DNA of 29,264 nucleotides from a virus, in IMG/VR virus record IMGVR_UViG_3300048838_000051, positions 1 to 29,264 of that record, one strand, 5' to 3'. The translations under genes and the position numbers were made by a program. Of this stretch, positions 19,398 through 25,971 are shown piece after piece. The notes beneath the pieces are model-generated. The model saw only the letters and a program-made list of their open reading frames with translations. It was not told where the DNA came from and did no database searches. Every line of letters begins with the position of its first letter. Position 1 is the stretch's first letter.

Positions 19398-19952
19398 TTA
19401 GGCTTCACCAGAAACATGTTGATCGGCATTAGGCAATCCTCGTAGTTTCGGCAAGGTATTATACAGGATGTACCCTTGCCGCTGTGCATCCGTTAGAGCG
19501 TTGTGAGCCTTGCCCGAAAGAGGGACTTCCATGCGTGGGATAAACGAGCACAGAGTTCGAAAGCAACGACTCTGCCGAAAGTGCCATGGGCAGGCAATAC
19601 CTACTTCCTCAAAGGCATCCCGCAGGATCACGTTGTCGAAGTCTGCTCCGTTGCTCCAGACCCCGCCAATCTTGTGCTTGCTGATCCAGTTGGCATAGGC
19701 TTGCAGTACGTTTGTCAACGATACATCACCACTGAAAGTGTCTGCACGTACTTCCTTGTCCTGAGTGAACCACCAGCGTACTGTAGACACATCGATGTGC
19801 CGGTTCGGCTGGCTGTTTACTGCGACCGTTTTGTAGAACTCATCGACGATTCTAGCTAGGTTGATGTCGATGATGACTGCCCCGATCGAGAGAATCACAG
19901 CATTCCTCTTGGAACTCAGTGTCTCTATGTCGTGCATCAGTTCGTAACTCAT
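19398..19952 (-). CDS. DEDDh 3'-5' exonuclease (Rv2179c/ExoVIII-like)
   Basis: This 184-residue nuclease has D8-I-E10 (segment MHDIETLS), the second acidic site in NGADFD (101-106) and H150-NALTD155, the complete DEDDh set of DnaQ-fold exonucleases. TVRWWFTQD and VWSNGADFDN are typical of the Rv2179c-like exoribonuclease and phage exonuclease VIII group. It would degrade DNA or RNA from 3' ends with two metal ions; the substrate is not predictable from sequence. Its ATG overlaps the stop of the preceding exonuclease gene (ATGA), so the two nucleases are translationally coupled. Confidence 0.85.
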   Translation of the reverse strand: MSYELMHDIETLSSKRNAVILSIGAVIIDINLARIVDEFYKTVAVNSQPNRHIDVSTVRWWFTQDKEVRADTFSGDVSLTNVLQAYANWISKHKIGGVWSNGADFDNVILRDAFEEVGIACPWHFRQSRCFRTLCSFIPRMEVPLSGKAHNALTDAQRQGYILYNTLPKLRGLPNADQHVSGEA

Positions 19953-20692
19953 AGGCTTACAAATTTCCCTTCAGGCCCGGGAGCCTGTGATTTTCCACCT
20001 CGGAACCAGTGACCACAACACTTGCATTGGTATCTGGTGTACTTGGCGGTTTTAGTGAAAGCAAACCCTCGGCGTTGGTAGTCTGCGCCTCCGCAGTTAG
20101 GGCAAACAAGCCCCTGCGGATCGTACAGAGAGTAGTTGGCATGGTCATGCACCCACGGCAGCAATCGCTGATACACCTTTTCAAGCAGCAAGACATCCTG
20201 CTTGTTGTACAGCTCCATTTCAGCCCAAGCCTGTGGATCGCGATCCATACATCGAGCCCACAAGGTGTGGCCCCTATGCTCATACTTGCGACCTACGCCT
20301 AGAGCTTGAGCAATGAAATCCAGCTTGTTGCTGGGAAATCGGAACTGCTTCTTGGCTGTCTTGAGAAGGTCAATCTGCTTATACGGAGCCGGAGCTTCGA
20401 TGTTGTACAGCAGAAACTCCTTGTTCAGCGTTGGAATGTCGAACTTGGTTCCATTGTAGTGCACCACAGCATCTGCTTCTGAGAGCAGCTTGTGTACTTT
20501 CTTGAGCATTCGCTTTGCGCCATCAGCATAGACAGACGAAAAGTACACCTCGTCTCCGCCTAGCCATTTGGCGCTCCAGCATAGAACATAGCCGCTGGCT
20601 TGGATCTGATTGATACCTACGTTCTGATTCCATAGCCCCCAAACGTGTACCAAGTTTGGTGCGGTCTCAATGTCCAGTATTAGGATCTTCAA
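19949..20692 (-). CDS. RNase H-fold 3'-5' exonuclease with C-terminal zinc ribbon
   Basis: The start is placed at TTG 20692, which gives MKILILDIETAP and has AGGAG seven bases upstream; ATG 20722 has no such site and increases the overlap with the previous gene. The 247-residue product has D7-I-E9, then VVHYNGTKFDIP (about 77-88), SNKLDFIAQALG and YNKQDVLLL, fitting a DEDDy-type YprB/DnaQ-like nuclease. The C-terminal 45 residues are a zinc ribbon with CPNCG and CKCCG knuckles, likely for nucleic-acid binding. A role in host DNA breakdown or replication repair is inferred. Confidence 0.8.
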   Translation of the reverse strand: MKILILDIETAPNLVHVWGLWNQNVGINQIQASGYVLCWSAKWLGGDEVYFSSVYADGAKRMLKKVHKLLSEADAVVHYNGTKFDIPTLNKEFLLYNIEAPAPYKQIDLLKTAKKQFRFPSNKLDFIAQALGVGRKYEHRGHTLWARCMDRDPQAWAEMELYNKQDVLLLEKVYQRLLPWVHDHANYSLYDPQGLVCPNCGGADYQRRGFAFTKTAKYTRYQCKCCGHWFRGGKSQAPGPEGKFVSL

Positions 20693-20903
20693 GAGGTAGC
20701 TCCTGTTGTTTGCCAACTTCACTCGGAGGCATTGCTCGGAAGAGCTTTTCTGCGGCCTCCCCGATCTGGCTTATCGGCATCGCTCCCCGCGCTAGAAGGG
20801 ATTTTAGACCGGCTTCGACCACTACGGCCAACTCCCGGTCCCGGAACACGCTGTTCACTTGGTACGTGTTCCCGTCCAGCTCGATTACTGACATTACTCG
20901 CAT
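20667..20903 (-). CDS. Small unknown protein overlapping the nuclease gene
   Basis: This 78-residue frame starts at ATG 20903 with GGAG five bases upstream. The N-terminal half alternates polar and hydrophobic residues (VIELDGNTYQVNSVFRDREL), followed by a helix (IGEAAEKLFRAM) and a polar tail. G+C-rich third positions look like real coding. It overlaps the 3' end of the PD-(D/E)XK nuclease frame by 185 nt and the next exonuclease by 26 nt. No family recognised. It is probably the true gene in the overlap, while the nuclease tail there may be non-functional. Confidence 0.6.
   Translation of the reverse strand: MRVMSVIELDGNTYQVNSVFRDRELAVVVEAGLKSLLARGAMPISQIGEAAEKLFRAMPPSEVGKQQELPLEDPNTGH
20700..20704 (-). 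promoter_or_regulatory. Ribosome-binding site deciding the TTG start of the zinc-ribbon exonuclease
   Basis: AGGAG with a seven-base spacer precedes TTG 20692. The resulting N-terminus, MKILILDIETAP, is the usual beginning of this nuclease family, so signal and homology agree. Confidence 0.65.
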
Positions 20904-21234
20904 ACACTAGCTCCATGAAGTGCCGTAGATCTATCACGGCAAGGGGATCAGATCGATCCTGTTGGATTACCAGAAGAGGCCGAGTGCCTGTGGCTACGTT
21001 GTCTGTCGTATCTTCCCACAGATCGTACACAGACATAGCTGCACGACGTTTACACTCGACCGAATACGGAAACTTCTCGACAGCTCTTTCGGACAGCAGA
21101 ACATCTACCCCAGAGGCACCCATACTGGTGCTTCTCACATCCCTTTCGGTCAGCTCTGGGTAGTCCGTGAGGATCTCGTCACGAACTAGCTGCTGTAGTT
21201 TCCGGCCTTTCGCTTTCGCTGACTGTGGTCGCAC
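20719..21234 (-). CDS. PD-(D/E)XK nuclease, Holliday-junction-resolvase-like
   Basis: It starts at GTG 21234 with GGAGG six bases upstream. The catalytic set is E20, D44 (SGVDVLLS) and E60-C-K62 (VECKRR), the layout of small PD-(D/E)XK nucleases that resolve branched DNA; the leading KAKGRKLQQLVRDE is typical of phage members. The nuclease domain ends near residue 114 (DLRHFMELVYASN). The last 57 residues are Arg/Ser/Gly/Pro-rich and lie entirely over another good reading frame, so they look like read-through. Likely role: processing replication or recombination branches before packaging. The start overlaps the flap exonuclease by 56 nt. Confidence 0.75.
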   Translation of the reverse strand: MRPQSAKAKGRKLQQLVRDEILTDYPELTERDVRSTSMGASGVDVLLSERAVEKFPYSVECKRRAAMSVYDLWEDTTDNVATGTRPLLVIQQDRSDPLAVIDLRHFMELVYASNVSNRAGREHVPSEQRVPGPGVGRSGRSRSKIPSSAGSDADKPDRGGRRKALPSNASE

Positions 21235-21919
21235 CTAATTCCTCCAAGATGTTCACATACTCTTCCTCGCTTCGGAGAATAGTAAGAAGCTTGCGATTAA
21301 GAAGGAAACGCTCTCTGTCGTTATACAGCTCGTAGACTCGGGCTTCCATTTCGGAGGGACGTAGAGCCTGTAGGTGGCGCCCGGCTTTAACGGTTCCGAT
21401 TCCTGCAACTCCTCGCACATTATCACTAGTGTCCCCAATGAGCATATGCGACCAAAAAGCCAAGGCAGCTTCGTCAGGAGTAATGACCTCGCTTTGTTCA
21501 CGAACAAAGTTATAGTGCTCTCCTGCGATCTGGCGAAAATCCTTGTCGATGGAGCAGATGACAGCACCCGGAACATGAGCGATTCCGATTCCGTCGTCAG
21601 CTTCGTATCCGGCGCAGACTTCAGCGCCCCATTCTCTAACCAGAAGGTCACGCAGGGTATCCAAGTGCCTTGGTTTGGGGATGTCATCACGGTTACGCTT
21701 GTAGTCCGGATAGAGCAGCTTTCTAAAGTTTTCAGAGCCGCTAAGAAAGATTCGATATTCAGCAGTCTTAACAGTACCGAGGATACGATCAAGGAGCTCA
21801 TCGGTTCTTGCGATAGCGATGCGTTCATTTTCCGATATTGGGTTTGTTTTTGTTGGTTCGCAGCTGGCCGCACAGCGGTAAGCCACGATGTCTCCGTCGA
21901 TTAACGCTATGCGGCCCAC
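21179..21919 (-). CDS. 5'-3' flap exonuclease (T5 D15/T7 gp6-like)
   Basis: This 246-residue enzyme starts at GTG 21919 with GGAG upstream. Metal-binding acids are in order: D8 and D10 (LIDGDI), E106-A-D108-D109 (YEADD), D125 and D127 (SIDKD), D163 and D166 (GDTSDN). A basic arch segment (DYKRNRDD) and a helix-hairpin-helix-like GVAGIGTVKA follow. The full set of conserved residues suggests an active enzyme that removes 5' flaps and RNA primers during phage replication. It lies between SSB and a branched-DNA nuclease, as in many phage replication blocks. Confidence 0.9.
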   Translation of the reverse strand: MGRIALIDGDIVAYRCAASCEPTKTNPISENERIAIARTDELLDRILGTVKTAEYRIFLSGSENFRKLLYPDYKRNRDDIPKPRHLDTLRDLLVREWGAEVCAGYEADDGIGIAHVPGAVICSIDKDFRQIAGEHYNFVREQSEVITPDEAALAFWSHMLIGDTSDNVRGVAGIGTVKAGRHLQALRPSEMEARVYELYNDRERFLLNRKLLTILRSEEEYVNILEELGATTVSESERPETTAASS

Positions 21920-21922
21920 TAT

Positions 21923-22501
21923 TTACTCCGGAATGTCGTCAGACATGTCAGCCATGCCTTGTCGGCCGACAACAAACTCCTCGAACTGCACCGCAGCTTT
22001 GATCACATCCTCTACCTTCGTAGGTTTGCCACCAGCCGTAAGCATAGCCACAGCGGTAGACAAGCTACTCTGGCGAATAATGAGTGCTTGTTTGCTCTTC
22101 TCAAAGTCAAAGCGTTCCCGGTCCAGCTTGTTTTTCTCATCCCAGTTTGTAGCCACTGCTCCTCCACGCGCCTGTCGTACTGCTGCTTGTCCTTGGGGGG
22201 CCTCGTTGACTGCTGCTCGCACTACCGAGGTTGCATCAGTGGTACCTGCGCTAACCCAGTCAAGGAACCCCTTCTCGTTCTTCACTGTCTCGACAACGAA
22301 CAGGTCCCCTTTCTTGGCACCTGCCATGGTTTCCCACACACCCTTGTCTGCAGCGAAGCTGAACAGTTTCTTGGCATCGACTTTACCAAAGGTAATGTTG
22401 TCAAACGTCACGGTCATTTCTTCGTACGACCGAGTACCCTTAGCAATCGTTTTCACAGAGATGTCGATTACCTTGATGTTCATTGTTTTCGTTTCAGCCA
22501 T
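21923..22501 (-). CDS. ssb: Single-stranded DNA-binding protein (OB-fold type)
   Basis: The start is set at ATG 22501, five bases after AGGAG and sharing one base with the polymerase stop (TAATG); an ATG at 22525 lies further into the polymerase gene. The 192-residue product has a beta-rich N-terminal half with OB-fold character (MTVTFDNITFG, DLFVVETVKNEKGF), a charged linker and helix, and an acidic C-terminus (DMSDDIPE) like the protein-binding tail of SSBs. It would coat single-stranded DNA at the fork. Position next to polymerase and flap exonuclease supports the call; no exact family was identified. Confidence 0.7.
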   Translation of the reverse strand: MAETKTMNIKVIDISVKTIAKGTRSYEEMTVTFDNITFGKVDAKKLFSFAADKGVWETMAGAKKGDLFVVETVKNEKGFLDWVSAGTTDATSVVRAAVNEAPQGQAAVRQARGGAVATNWDEKNKLDRERFDFEKSKQALIIRQSSLSTAVAMLTAGGKPTKVEDVIKAAVQFEEFVVGRQGMADMSDDIPE

Positions 22502-23259
22502 TATTGCTCCTGTTGTGCCAGCCAAGTCTGGTAGCTGGTCATAGTCTTTTCGTCTAGTGTCGGCCCCAACTTGACTTCTCCCGGAAAGGAGATCGGAACC
22601 TTGATGTGGAATATTCGCTCGATCTGAGACGAGACATCCCTAAAAGCCGCTATAGCAGTAGTAGCTACCCGCTTAATTTCCTCCACCGTTGGACAATCGT
22701 ACACAATACTGTCGTGTACCGTATTCACCGCCAAAGATGTCGAACCCAGTTGGCGGAGGCGATTTCTCAAGATGACACGAGCAATCATCACAATGTCTGC
22801 TCCTGTTCCTTGAACCGGCCAGTTGCTCAGTGTGGTCCACGGAATATCCCCGTTGGGCCTTAGTGGTACCATCCACTCCATCCCCAGAGGGGATTGTATA
22901 GGTCTCCTGCTCGCTACAAGTCGTGCCCATGTCTGGTGTGTATTATCTAGCCCGCTGTATTTGGCAAAGAAGGCTTCATTGAGACCATCCCAGTACTTCG
23001 GGTCTTTCGAGACATGGAAGAAATCGGGGTCATGGGCGAACGCCCAACCCGAACCACGGAAAATGGTCCTGAACAGGAAACGCTTGGCAATGAGACGCTC
23101 GGGGAGCTGTAACACACGACGGTTCTTTTCATGGATATCCTTCTCAGGGTCATCGGGATTTGCATCCCTGTCATTGAGTTCTGCTATCCCTATCGGATCT
23201 CCCGACAGGAAGACTGCTACGCGCCATTCAAGTTGCGCGCTATCGATCTGAACCAGCAT
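22501..23259 (-). CDS. polA: DNA polymerase family A, C-terminal half (palm/fingers)
   Basis: This 252-residue protein begins almost exactly at motif A (D6-SAQ9-L-E11-W-R13). Motif B reads R55-LIA-K59-RFLF63, then F67-R68-G69, where E. coli Pol I has Tyr766-Gly767. WPVQGTGADI (147-156) and motif C VH182D183 follow. All catalytic acids for nucleotide addition are present, but the thumb, the exonuclease and the TGRLSS motif are encoded by the separate upstream gene. Start at ATG 23259 has AGGA upstream and lies one base after the stop of a 70-residue gene. It presumably assembles with the N-terminal half. Confidence 0.9.
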   Translation of the reverse strand: MLVQIDSAQLEWRVAVFLSGDPIGIAELNDRDANPDDPEKDIHEKNRRVLQLPERLIAKRFLFRTIFRGSGWAFAHDPDFFHVSKDPKYWDGLNEAFFAKYSGLDNTHQTWARLVASRRPIQSPLGMEWMVPLRPNGDIPWTTLSNWPVQGTGADIVMIARVILRNRLRQLGSTSLAVNTVHDSIVYDCPTVEEIKRVATTAIAAFRDVSSQIERIFHIKVPISFPGEVKLGPTLDEKTMTSYQTWLAQQEQ

Positions 23260-23260
23260 C

Positions 23261-23473
23261 TCATTTCCTGTATTCTCGCAGAAGAGCTGGTACGGCTTTC
23301 TGGTTCAACGCCAGAGCCCGGTGTTTGAATTCCTCTGTCAGGGCATCATACACTTCCGGGTAGTTGTGTTGAAGATCAGACAAGAAGCATCCTGCACCCT
23401 CCTCTTTAATGTAGTCGCGGACTTCTTGCAAAGTGTATGCGTGCTCAAGTTCCCAGTTGCGGTTGGTGGACAT
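23261..23473 (-). CDS. 70-residue protein encoded between the polymerase halves
   Basis: It starts at ATG 23473, five bases after GGAG, a site lying inside the last codons of the N-terminal polymerase gene, and overlaps that gene by 29 nt; its stop lies one base before the next polymerase ATG. The product is charged and mostly helical (YTLQEVRDYIKEE, then YDALTEEFKHRALALNQ) and ends in basic residues. I see no HNH, GIY-YIG, LAGLIDADG or intein motif, so it is not an obvious homing element. It could be an unrelated inserted gene or a factor that holds the two halves together; neither is shown. Confidence 0.75.
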   Translation of the reverse strand: MSTNRNWELEHAYTLQEVRDYIKEEGAGCFLSDLQHNYPEVYDALTEEFKHRALALNQKAVPALLREYRK

Positions 23474-24605
23474 ACCTACTCCGAAAGATTGACTTGATGG
23501 AGCCTGCGATATTCTGCATGTTCGGCTTTGAGGAGGACAATCGGCCAGTCTTGGTTACGCACTGGTTGAACTGTCCATGAACAATCTCTGGATTAGGGAA
23601 GTGCATCTCTTCGGCAAACTCTAGCATACCTCGGAGATACGTGCCATTCATCTTCTCCAGTTCCTTGATCCTCAGGATACCATTGATAAGCTCCTTGTTT
23701 CCGCCCTTTAATTGCACCAAGAACTCTTCGCTAACCGACCATTGACCCTCCTTTGCAGACTCTGACCCGTTTATAGGCTTATACATCCGTGGTAGGACAT
23801 ACACCCTTTCTTCCTTGGCGAACTTCGGTTCTCCCTTCCTAGCACCGGTCTTGTAGACGACTCCGGAAGGAACCCTGACCTCCTGCGTGATCTCTCCGCC
23901 GTATAGAAGAGCTGAGAGCTGAGCTGGAGATGTCCAGTTGAAGTCTGGCACATTGTGGTACTTGTTGAGGGAGGTCCTGATCTTCTGTATCTCGTCTTCG
24001 GCCTCCTTTGCTTTCTTCTCGATCAGGGGCCTATCGATATACAGTCCGTTGGACTCCATTTCCATAAGACCCTGCATATCCACCATACGAATCTTCAGGA
24101 TCTTGCGAAGATTCTCAGGCATGTTCGCTTGCTGTGCTTCGTAGACCCTTAGAGTCAAAGAGGCATCATGGGCGGCGTAGGCGGAGAGTTCGTCCCAAGG
24201 AATTGCATCTGTGTTGACTCCCCGTTTCCAATACTCGGCGATGGCGTCGTGTTTAGATTCTCTAAGGTACTTATCGGCACAACCATTGAGAGATGGATAT
24301 GGATTTTGTTGTCGATCAAGTAGAAATTCTGCCACTTGACAACAGTAGATGGTAGTGGCAGGAATTTCATAACCAAGTCGCCTAAGCCAGTGCAGGTCGT
24401 ACTTGAGGTTAAAACCGACAATGCACGTTGCTTCTCCAAGTAGTCGTTCAATGTGTGGTCTGGCTTCCTCAGTCTTGAGAGCGCCTGCAACCAAGACTCC
24501 ATCTGGTTGTCGGTAGGCGTAGGAGATACAGACGTTGGCGTTTCTTGTATCAAAAGGACTCCCTTTGTTCCATGTGGTGTTTTCTGTGTCGAGAGCGAGA
24601 ATCAT
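23445..24605 (-). CDS. polA: DNA polymerase family A, N-terminal half (exonuclease and thumb)
   Basis: This 386-residue protein carries the 3'-5' proofreading domain with D6-T-E8, N66-LKY-D70 and Y143-AAH-D147, followed by the thumb region and the conserved TKTGRLSSSKPNMQNI segment at 351-366. It continues to FRSRY (374-378), where intact enzymes run on into motif A, then ends after eight unrelated residues (VHQPQLGT). The exonuclease site looks complete. Start ATG 24605 overlaps the stop of a 50-residue gene (ATGA) and has no strong ribosome site, so coupled translation is likely. Confidence 0.9.
   Translation of the reverse strand: MILALDTENTTWNKGSPFDTRNANVCISYAYRQPDGVLVAGALKTEEARPHIERLLGEATCIVGFNLKYDLHWLRRLGYEIPATTIYCCQVAEFLLDRQQNPYPSLNGCADKYLRESKHDAIAEYWKRGVNTDAIPWDELSAYAAHDASLTLRVYEAQQANMPENLRKILKIRMVDMQGLMEMESNGLYIDRPLIEKKAKEAEDEIQKIRTSLNKYHNVPDFNWTSPAQLSALLYGGEITQEVRVPSGVVYKTGARKGEPKFAKEERVYVLPRMYKPINGSESAKEGQWSVSEEFLVQLKGGNKELINGILRIKELEKMNGTYLRGMLEFAEEMHFPNPEIVHGQFNQCVTKTGRLSSSKPNMQNIAGSIKSIFRSRYVHQPQLGT
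23479..23482 (-). promoter_or_regulatory. Ribosome-binding site embedded in polymerase codons
   Basis: GGAG lies in the codons for the Phe-Arg-Ser-Arg-Tyr segment of the N-terminal polymerase half, five bases before ATG 23473, and supports separate translation of the 70-residue gene. Confidence 0.6.
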
Positions 24606-24754
24606 TGCAGTGTCTGGTTCAGGACTTTTTTCTCCATGATTGCAACAGCGGTGTTGATTTGTTGTTTGAGGGTAGGAGAAAAAGCATCGTCTGCGATGCC
24701 TACCGCAAATTCAACTGTGTCTTTGATTAGCTCGACTGCTTCTGCGTCAGTCAT
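24602..24754 (-). CDS. 50-residue helical protein between helicase and polymerase genes
   Basis: A short frame from ATG 24754, whose ATGA overlaps the helicase stop, to a TGA whose ATGA overlaps the polymerase start. The product starts MTDAEAVELIKDTVEF and is acidic, helical and without Cys. Perfect 4-nt couplings at both ends, in a block where this is the rule, are the main evidence. It fills the gap of about 145 nt between the two large genes. Function unknown; it may serve chiefly to couple translation or may bind the replication proteins. Confidence 0.65.
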   Translation of the reverse strand: MTDAEAVELIKDTVEFAVGIADDAFSPTLKQQINTAVAIMEKKVLNQTLQ

Positions 24755-25971
24755 AGGTCTTCGTATCTTCCTATTTCGGGTTTGATGAGAACTTCGAACC
24801 TGCCGTGTCGTGAGTTTGGATCAGTATCCATATCCCCGGTAAGTTTGTTCTTCAGGATATGAAGAAACCGGACAAACTCGAACCCTTGGGCGTGGTCTTT
24901 GCCGATACCGATGATGAAGTCAGCTTCCGCCTGTTTGGCGGTCTTGGCATCAGCTACGTGGTTCATCTGCAACCAACGTACCCCCTCTCCAGAGCCATCT
25001 GCTTGGCAGATTCCGATGACAGGGCAGTAGGTCTTTGCAAGCTCCCTACCCCACTGATAGATGGCACCAAGTTCTAGGTCTTTACGATCAGCTGTAAAGC
25101 CCTTCACCTTGTCGATCTGGTCAATCACGATCAACGAAGGTTGTTCCTTCTTGCACAGGGATTCTACTAGGCCCTTTGTGATGAAAGCGTTGTCGTATAG
25201 CAGCAGCTTCCCGTGTGTCAGGTCAATGTACTGCTCTTGTGCGGCTTCTGGATTAGATAGAACCTGCTCCTTTGTCCACCCAAGAGCTGACAGGAAGTTC
25301 CGGAACTTTACATCTTCACCAGACTCCTCGTTGTTGAACCAGATGATAGGACCATCATACTCCCCTAACTGGGAAGTCATGTTGGTTATCTCGGATGACA
25401 GGAAAGTGGTCTTTCCGGTTTCCGGTCTTGCAAAGACAAAACCAAAGTCCCCCTTGCGGAGACTTCCCAACGATTGATTCAGGACTTTCAGACGCCACCG
25501 AAGGCCGGGGGTCTTGATGTGCTGATTGATGATCTCCTGTAGGTTATCAGAAACGTAGAGCAGCTCATTAGGCTGCTCTTCCTCTTTCAGCTTACTGGCA
25601 AGAGACGCGACTTCATCGATGGACTTGCGACCGATGGAAGCCTCATACGCAACTAAGGCAAGGTCTTTGCAGACTTGCTGTTGCTTGAAGAACCGGAGAA
25701 GTTCTTTCGCCGTGTTGTTTATCGGCGTCTGTTCCAGTTGATGGAACAGCTCTTTGATATATCCCCGCTCCTTCTCGGGGATTGGCTGCGCGAACGTGAG
25801 GTTCGCTATATCAACGAGGGTTGGTTCCCCTTCTTCTGTTTGCCACCATTTGTCCAGAGACTTGACAATGAGCCGGCACTCTGGAGAGAACTCCTTGAGT
25901 TCGACTACATGGCGGTAGTTGTTGTATGTGTCTTTGTCGAGTAAGCTCCTTATCAGGCTTAGCTCGTACAT
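24751..25971 (-). CDS. DnaB-like replicative helicase
   Basis: This 406-residue ATPase has an all-helical N-terminal domain (about 1-130), then a RecA-fold core with Walker A ARPETGKT (181-188), catalytic Glu in NNEES (213-217), Walker B LIVIDQID (280-287) and a sensor-like ICQADGSG (321-328). The size and order fit a phage DnaB/gp4-type helicase that unwinds DNA ahead of the polymerase. No zinc-binding primase domain is present and no primase gene was recognised in the window, so priming may rely on a host or out-of-window enzyme. It starts at TAATG with the lipoprotein gene and has GGAG very close to the ATG. Confidence 0.88.
   Translation of the reverse strand: MYELSLIRSLLDKDTYNNYRHVVELKEFSPECRLIVKSLDKWWQTEEGEPTLVDIANLTFAQPIPEKERGYIKELFHQLEQTPINNTAKELLRFFKQQQVCKDLALVAYEASIGRKSIDEVASLASKLKEEEQPNELLYVSDNLQEIINQHIKTPGLRWRLKVLNQSLGSLRKGDFGFVFARPETGKTTFLSSEITNMTSQLGEYDGPIIWFNNEESGEDVKFRNFLSALGWTKEQVLSNPEAAQEQYIDLTHGKLLLYDNAFITKGLVESLCKKEQPSLIVIDQIDKVKGFTADRKDLELGAIYQWGRELAKTYCPVIGICQADGSGEGVRWLQMNHVADAKTAKQAEADFIIGIGKDHAQGFEFVRFLHILKNKLTGDMDTDPNSRHGRFEVLIKPEIGRYEDL

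Follow-up and report, generated by a model that had tools for sequence, protein, structure and literature searches.

We have identified, in a virus record of 29,264 nucleotides (IMG/VR IMGVR_UViG_3300048838_000051, hereafter the window, possibly a fragment), a family A replicative DNA polymerase that is encoded in two pieces and would work as two non-covalently assembling chains, a reading to which a probability of roughly 0.87 is given. It is supported by the gene arrangement, by conservation and purifying selection, by a fold match and by the absence of an intron signal. Family A polymerases are customarily single polypeptides, although this is not strictly a defining trait of the family. 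The custom is departed from by two open reading frames in different frames, both in the window and across 132 distinct related phage loci. The features of the window referred to below are as follows.

24751..25971, minus strand: DnaB-like replicative helicase of the same replication module (PHROG 19, 3.8e-49)
23445..24605, minus strand: N-terminal chain of the family A DNA polymerase with exonuclease, thumb and TGRLSS, 386 residues (Pfam, PHROG)
23479..23482, minus strand: GGAG, Shine-Dalgarno-like, ahead of ORF70 (read from the sequence)
23261..23473, minus strand: ORF70, small all-helical slot protein, 70 residues (profile match, AF2)
23266..23269, minus strand: AGGA, Shine-Dalgarno-like, ahead of the C-half and within the end of ORF70 (read from the sequence)
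22501..23259, minus strand: C-terminal chain with motif A, fingers (motif B) and motif C palm, 252 residues (Pfam, AF2)
21179..21919, minus strand: 5'-3' exonuclease of the same replication module (Pfam 5_3_exonuc_N, 5.1e-12; PHROG 107, 3.5e-52)

The N-half, ORF70 and the C-half follow one another on the minus strand in three different frames. The N-half ends just past IFRSRY, with TGRLSSSKPNMQNIAGSIKSIFRSRY followed by VHQPQLGT and a stop codon, and ORF70 starts within its last nine codons, the GGAG lying five nucleotides 5' of the ORF70 ATG. The next junction reads TGA-G-ATG, so that the C-half starts directly after the ORF70 stop, and its N-terminus, MLVQIDSAQLE, is the strand holding the motif A aspartate. 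The N-half is assigned to family A polymerases with 3'-5' exonuclease (Pfam DNA_pol_A_exo1, 1.4e-12, and DNA_pol_A, 1.4e-20; PHROG 17/9556) and the C-half to DNA_pol_A (3.2e-11), PF00476 thus being found in both. The motif A Asp, the R...K...F of motif B, the H-D of motif C and TGRLSS are all present. The first-pass annotation had described a polymerase split just before motif A with no core segment lost, which is borne out by the reading frames, the Pfam and PHROG assignments and the alignment; its statement that the three frames all differ and that the insert has its own ribosome site is confirmed by the frames and the GGAG. The position of the helicase relative to the polymerase halves is also kept in two relatives (L001 and L004).

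In a comparison with the unsplit polymerase of HMO-2011, in which the region reads FVSRF-DGGK-VMEADF (reference segment in the cut alignment, FVSRFDGGKVMEADFAQLE), nothing is missing apart from a loop of roughly four residues that links SRF to the motif A strand. The cut is placed exactly ahead of that strand, corresponding to about 469/470 of T7 gp5 and 604/605 of Taq, and on solved structures the C-half profile begins at chain index 378 (Klenow entry) and 606 (full-length Taq). The AF2 model of the C-chain has a pLDDT of 95.5 and matches T7 gp5 470-704 with Z 19.3 and 2.2 Å; over T7 gp5 470-704, Taq 605-831 and Bst 648-876 the values are Z of about 19-22 and rmsd of about 2-3 Å for about 215 residues. 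The palm/fingers fold of a family A polymerase is, as predicted by this model, present in the C-chain. As the cut falls in the loop directly before the motif A strand, the palm would comprise both chains. The HMO-2011-type enzyme is a related family A phage polymerase but a single chain, and its Zn insert (a partial DnaJ domain) is situated well upstream, at the boundary of the exonuclease and polymerase domains, and not at the cut site of the window.

One transcript with translational coupling would yield both chains. The N-chain would contribute the exonuclease, the thumb and the start of the palm, as far as IFxSRY; the C-chain would supply the motif A strand, the fingers and the motif C palm. 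Each chain is predicted to fold alone and to join the other non-covalently across the palm, and the assembled chains would form an active proofreading replicase. A further polymerase may be encoded elsewhere in each genome.

Relatives were collected with alignments of the C-half and of the slot protein, used in scans of IMG/VR and in one genome scan, and were then analysed uniformly for reading frames and profiles; alignments were needed, since a single-sequence scan with the C-half of the window returned no relative. This search for the polymerase halves in phage genomes, proposed as a check in the first-pass annotation, has revealed both halves with the same cut in the 132 loci, most of these split-polymerase members being metagenomic contigs, and an insert of the ORF70 family in the slot in 78 of them. 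The C-half has its ATG at the identical residue, on the motif A strand, in 116 of the 132. Its frame relative to the N-half is 0, 1 and 2 in 49, 30 and 53 loci respectively, and the distance between the halves ranges from an overlap of 17 nt (-17) to 3.6 kb. Sixteen loci have a gap of at most 10 nt or an overlap and no insert; they include the isolate Alcaligenes phage QDWS535, whose halves overlap by 1 nt (TAATG). The same cut is found in MEP402 (L004) with a 77-residue ORF in the gap, in ctOsX528 (L003) with an R67-DHFR-like gene there (L003:3767-3973; Pfam E 2.7e-22), and in ct2os315, where the halves are 3.6 kb and several genes apart.

The exonuclease residues D/E/D/Y/D and the Arg of TGRLSS are invariant in all 108 N-halves, as are the R/K/F of motif B and the H/D of motif C in all 125 C-halves; over these same sets the family A motifs, including the motif A Asp, are practically invariant. 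For the C-half dN is far below dS, as exemplified by 0.022 against 0.41 for the pair L052/L004. The figures for L050/L047 have been disregarded, being distorted because the L047 C-half contains an in-frame stop. A sequencing or assembly error, or a decaying pseudogene, could be considered for a single metagenomic record, and frame errors of that type do occur in L003, L047 and L059; the recurrence in isolates (QDWS535, MEP402) and in 132 loci, the purifying selection and the invariant active sites leave this explanation highly improbable. Recurrence of the cut at one and the same codon across the 132 loci excludes chance and sequencing error as its source, and the earlier judgement that a random frameshift was unlikely is upheld. 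The apparent single-base frame errors or in-frame stop in the metagenomic C-halves (L003:3974-4020, L047:688-690, L059:940-970) lie outside the conserved split pattern.

Phages MEP401 and MEP402 of OM43, described in 2023 (PMC10580990), share with the window the gene family, the cut point and a small ORF between the halves. Their gene order (helicase, polymerase N, small ORF, polymerase C, exonuclease) resembles that of the window, and their small ORFs are related to ORF70 by profile. The feature that marks the MEP401 type, a cut that separates xxSRY from the motif A strand, with an ATG of its own for the C-half, is found in the window, which is a distant new member of the kind outlined there, on a separate branch with about 40% (N) and 32% (C) identity. 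In that study the split polymerase with a small ORF was noted in MEP401/402 and in the majority of their relatives from metagenomes, the ORF was left unidentified and an intron was suggested.

A self-splicing intron, possibly degenerate, would restore one chain after splicing. HNH-bearing introns are frequent in phage polA, and some relatives of this gene do carry group I introns, matched by Rfam with E from 5e-7 to 2e-6, at motif B in L061:2050-2590 and L064:5330-5998 and at TGRLSSSKP|NLQN in L018:2952-3640; a fourth, at motif B in L063:2938-3524, is called by its like layout, and all four contain HNH-like ORFs. The matches in L061, L064 and L018 are below the curated Rfam cut-off, their flanking exons are continuous, and they have served as positive controls. 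These true introns keep the profile positions continuous (56|57) and introduce no new ATG or Shine-Dalgarno sequence, unlike the cut, and in L018 the ordinary cut is present as well, behind the intron. The insert of the window is a coding gene and gave no match up to E=10 in a relaxed Rfam search; the gaps of L026 and L027 are without an intron in the same search, and in 16 loci the halves are separated by at most 10 nt or overlap. An intron is thus very improbable as an account of the split.

Joining of the chains after translation by a split intein, as suggested for the family B polymerase PolB of phage MIJ3 (PMC6892783), is the least probable of the explanations considered, bordering on negligible: the N-chain has 0-5 residues past SRY in most loci and 8 in the window, which is too short, and the C-chain has none before the motif A strand, so that intein halves cannot fit. 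Overlapping halves leave no room for an intron or an intein, and since halves abut or overlap in some loci and are 3.6 kb apart in another, neither of these nor a fixed frameshift can rejoin the halves generally. The two-subunit polymerase suggested in the first-pass annotation, as a predicted assembly, gains strong comparative support from the fixed cut, the use of all frames, the abutting or distant halves and the invariant catalytic residues.

In the tree of joined halves all 41 split rows form one clade (100/100). The window shares a clade with MEP402 (100/100) and groups with QDWS535 and L016-L018 (100/99). With the C-half profile, 37 unsplit relatives score at most 146 bits and the split loci at least 144 bits, excepting intron-bearing or incomplete copies. 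Close relatives with an intact polymerase had been named beforehand as evidence that would speak against the split; no intact polymerase lies inside the split clade, in the tree or among the loci found. The cut would have a single origin in the common ancestor of the split clade, with no reversion in any locus found.

The ORFs found in the slot at other loci belong to one family, whose pattern is EEAxxxxTxxEFxxxIxxxGxxxVLxxL. ORF70 matches a profile built without the window with E=2.4e-5 (15,105 ORFs), and all matches below 0.01 to that profile are in the slot, adjoining a polymerase half. With a profile that includes the slot proteins of the window branch and excludes the window, E is 3.3e-6 (31,579 ORFs), and ORF70 ranks just below the other slot proteins. 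ORF70 is a genuine protein that belongs, as a divergent member, to a family of small helical slot proteins. Its AF2 model is a helical bundle (pLDDT 80.9) with no match in Pfam, PHROG or among PDB folds, which does not by itself make the fold new, and tblastn against phages gave no match. An IMG/VR scan with ORF70 returned six loci with 47% identity over 32 residues, rejected as chance resemblance because the scan favours a shared LQEVRDYI peptide and because in L006, the one locus of the six that was inspected, the matching ORF belongs to a T4-like genome with no polymerase half among its listed ORFs.

The first-pass annotation had raised the possibility that the 70-residue protein is a third part of the enzyme. 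A dedicated subunit of this kind, acting in assembly, processivity or bridging, is in keeping with the slot position in 78 of 132 loci, with a family homology traceable across the clade, with some purifying selection (dN/dS mostly about 0.2-0.45 and 0.64 in one close pair, a weaker selection than that on the polymerase) and with L136, which keeps its slot protein (L136:2418-2636) about 2.2 kb away although its halves abut. The family is, however, missing from the slot in 54 of 132 loci, including that of QDWS535, the isolate nearest to the window, and the tree requires no fewer than 7 gains or losses to explain where it is present. Relatives occur outside the slot in the T7-like loci L207:922-1095, L208:2356-2583 and L209:3944-4117 and in L202:3986-4168, where no split polymerase half was found within the fetched stretch, and unrelated genes also occupy the slot. 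As the family is dispensable there and is found elsewhere, ORF70 is not taken as an obligate third subunit, and a three-part enzyme appears unlikely: what stands of the earlier suggestion is a real slot-family protein, and what does not is its being a required part. From these distributions ORF70 is read as an optional phage accessory protein preferring this operon position. Four of the five out-of-slot relatives (L207, L208, L209, L202, L136) lie 5' of a primase or primase-helicase-like gene. An 80-residue gene 5' of the N-half in QDWS535 (L001:4572-4814) was considered as a relocated slot protein and rejected, the family profile not matching it.

Besides the R67-DHFR-like gene of L003, a winged-HTH protein (L148:1612-1833) and a Calcineurin-like phosphoesterase (L116:1519-2022) occupy the slot, from which it follows that quite different cargo is accepted; L037 and L049 have membrane-like small ORFs. 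Genes of the Pfam family HNH_3 are found in the gaps of L026, L027, L132 and L212, and weakly in ICP2 (ORF51), and HNH-like genes recognised by eye only in L103 and the L059/L138/L145 group. No homing endonuclease is found between the halves in the window. After the cut, the junction would have become a site where small genes and homing endonucleases settled, ORF70 being one such gene with a presumed accessory role for its helical product.

By analogy with T4-like phages (PMC2988022), insertion of a homing endonuclease is plausible as the cause of the fission and may have begun it; the endonucleases in the slot could also be later arrivals. In the T4-like phages 25 and 44RR gp43, and in Aeh1 NrdA, are likewise encoded as two ORFs, linked to a homing endonuclease or other insertion. 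The gp43A/B of phage 25 co-purify and show polymerase activity, and NrdA of Aeh1 is active in its split form (PMC2988022), so that active assembly is proven there by experiment, whereas for the window it is predicted from sequence. The gp43 enzymes belong to family B and are split at another position, and, unlike the T4-like cases, many members of the split clade of the window have no endonuclease.

A family A polymerase in two ORFs cut at a nearby site has also been found in ICP2 (HQ641345) and ICP2_2013_A_Haiti (KM224879), about 14 residues upstream of the cut of the window and preceding IKRCIISRF (L012:2953-5046, L013:2953-5521). The gap of ICP2 holds an HNH-like ORF, around which the record annotates a joined (spliced) CDS; that of the Haiti phage is 9 nt without an insert, and the gene is split nonetheless. 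Since the ICP2 polymerases group with unsplit Autographiviridae polymerases and a common clade with the main split group is rejected (p-AU 0.001, with long branches involved), this split is most likely independent of that in the window clade. A literature search on gene fission in phage polymerases and on ICP2 introns returned nothing relevant.

Beyond the account of 2023, the present analysis argues against an intron, defines the slot-protein family and its being dispensable in the slot, presents the slot as a target of endonucleases and describes the second, apparently independent split of ICP2. A puzzling annotation is thereby turned into a testable claim, that a replicative polymerase has its active site divided between two chains. 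Split-polymerase tools could make use of the loop before motif A, which would lend itself naturally to splitting, and surveys with phage polA as marker gene may overlook or misinterpret split genes. Gene fission could be studied at this junction, which is rich in homing endonucleases, and ICP2 offers a second example. It is conceivable, though rather unlikely, that a widespread phage lineage has an obligate, stably inherited two-chain family A replicase with its palm completed in trans, that the slot protein helps conditionally in assembly or processivity, and that fission at this loop is stable and repeatable (two independent events in family A).

The window also encodes, at 19949-20722, a zinc-ribbon (CPNCGG...CKCCG) preceded by an RNase_H_2/PolB-exonuclease-like domain. 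The exonuclease profile of the polymerase N-half weakly matches this ORF and similar ORFs in several relatives.
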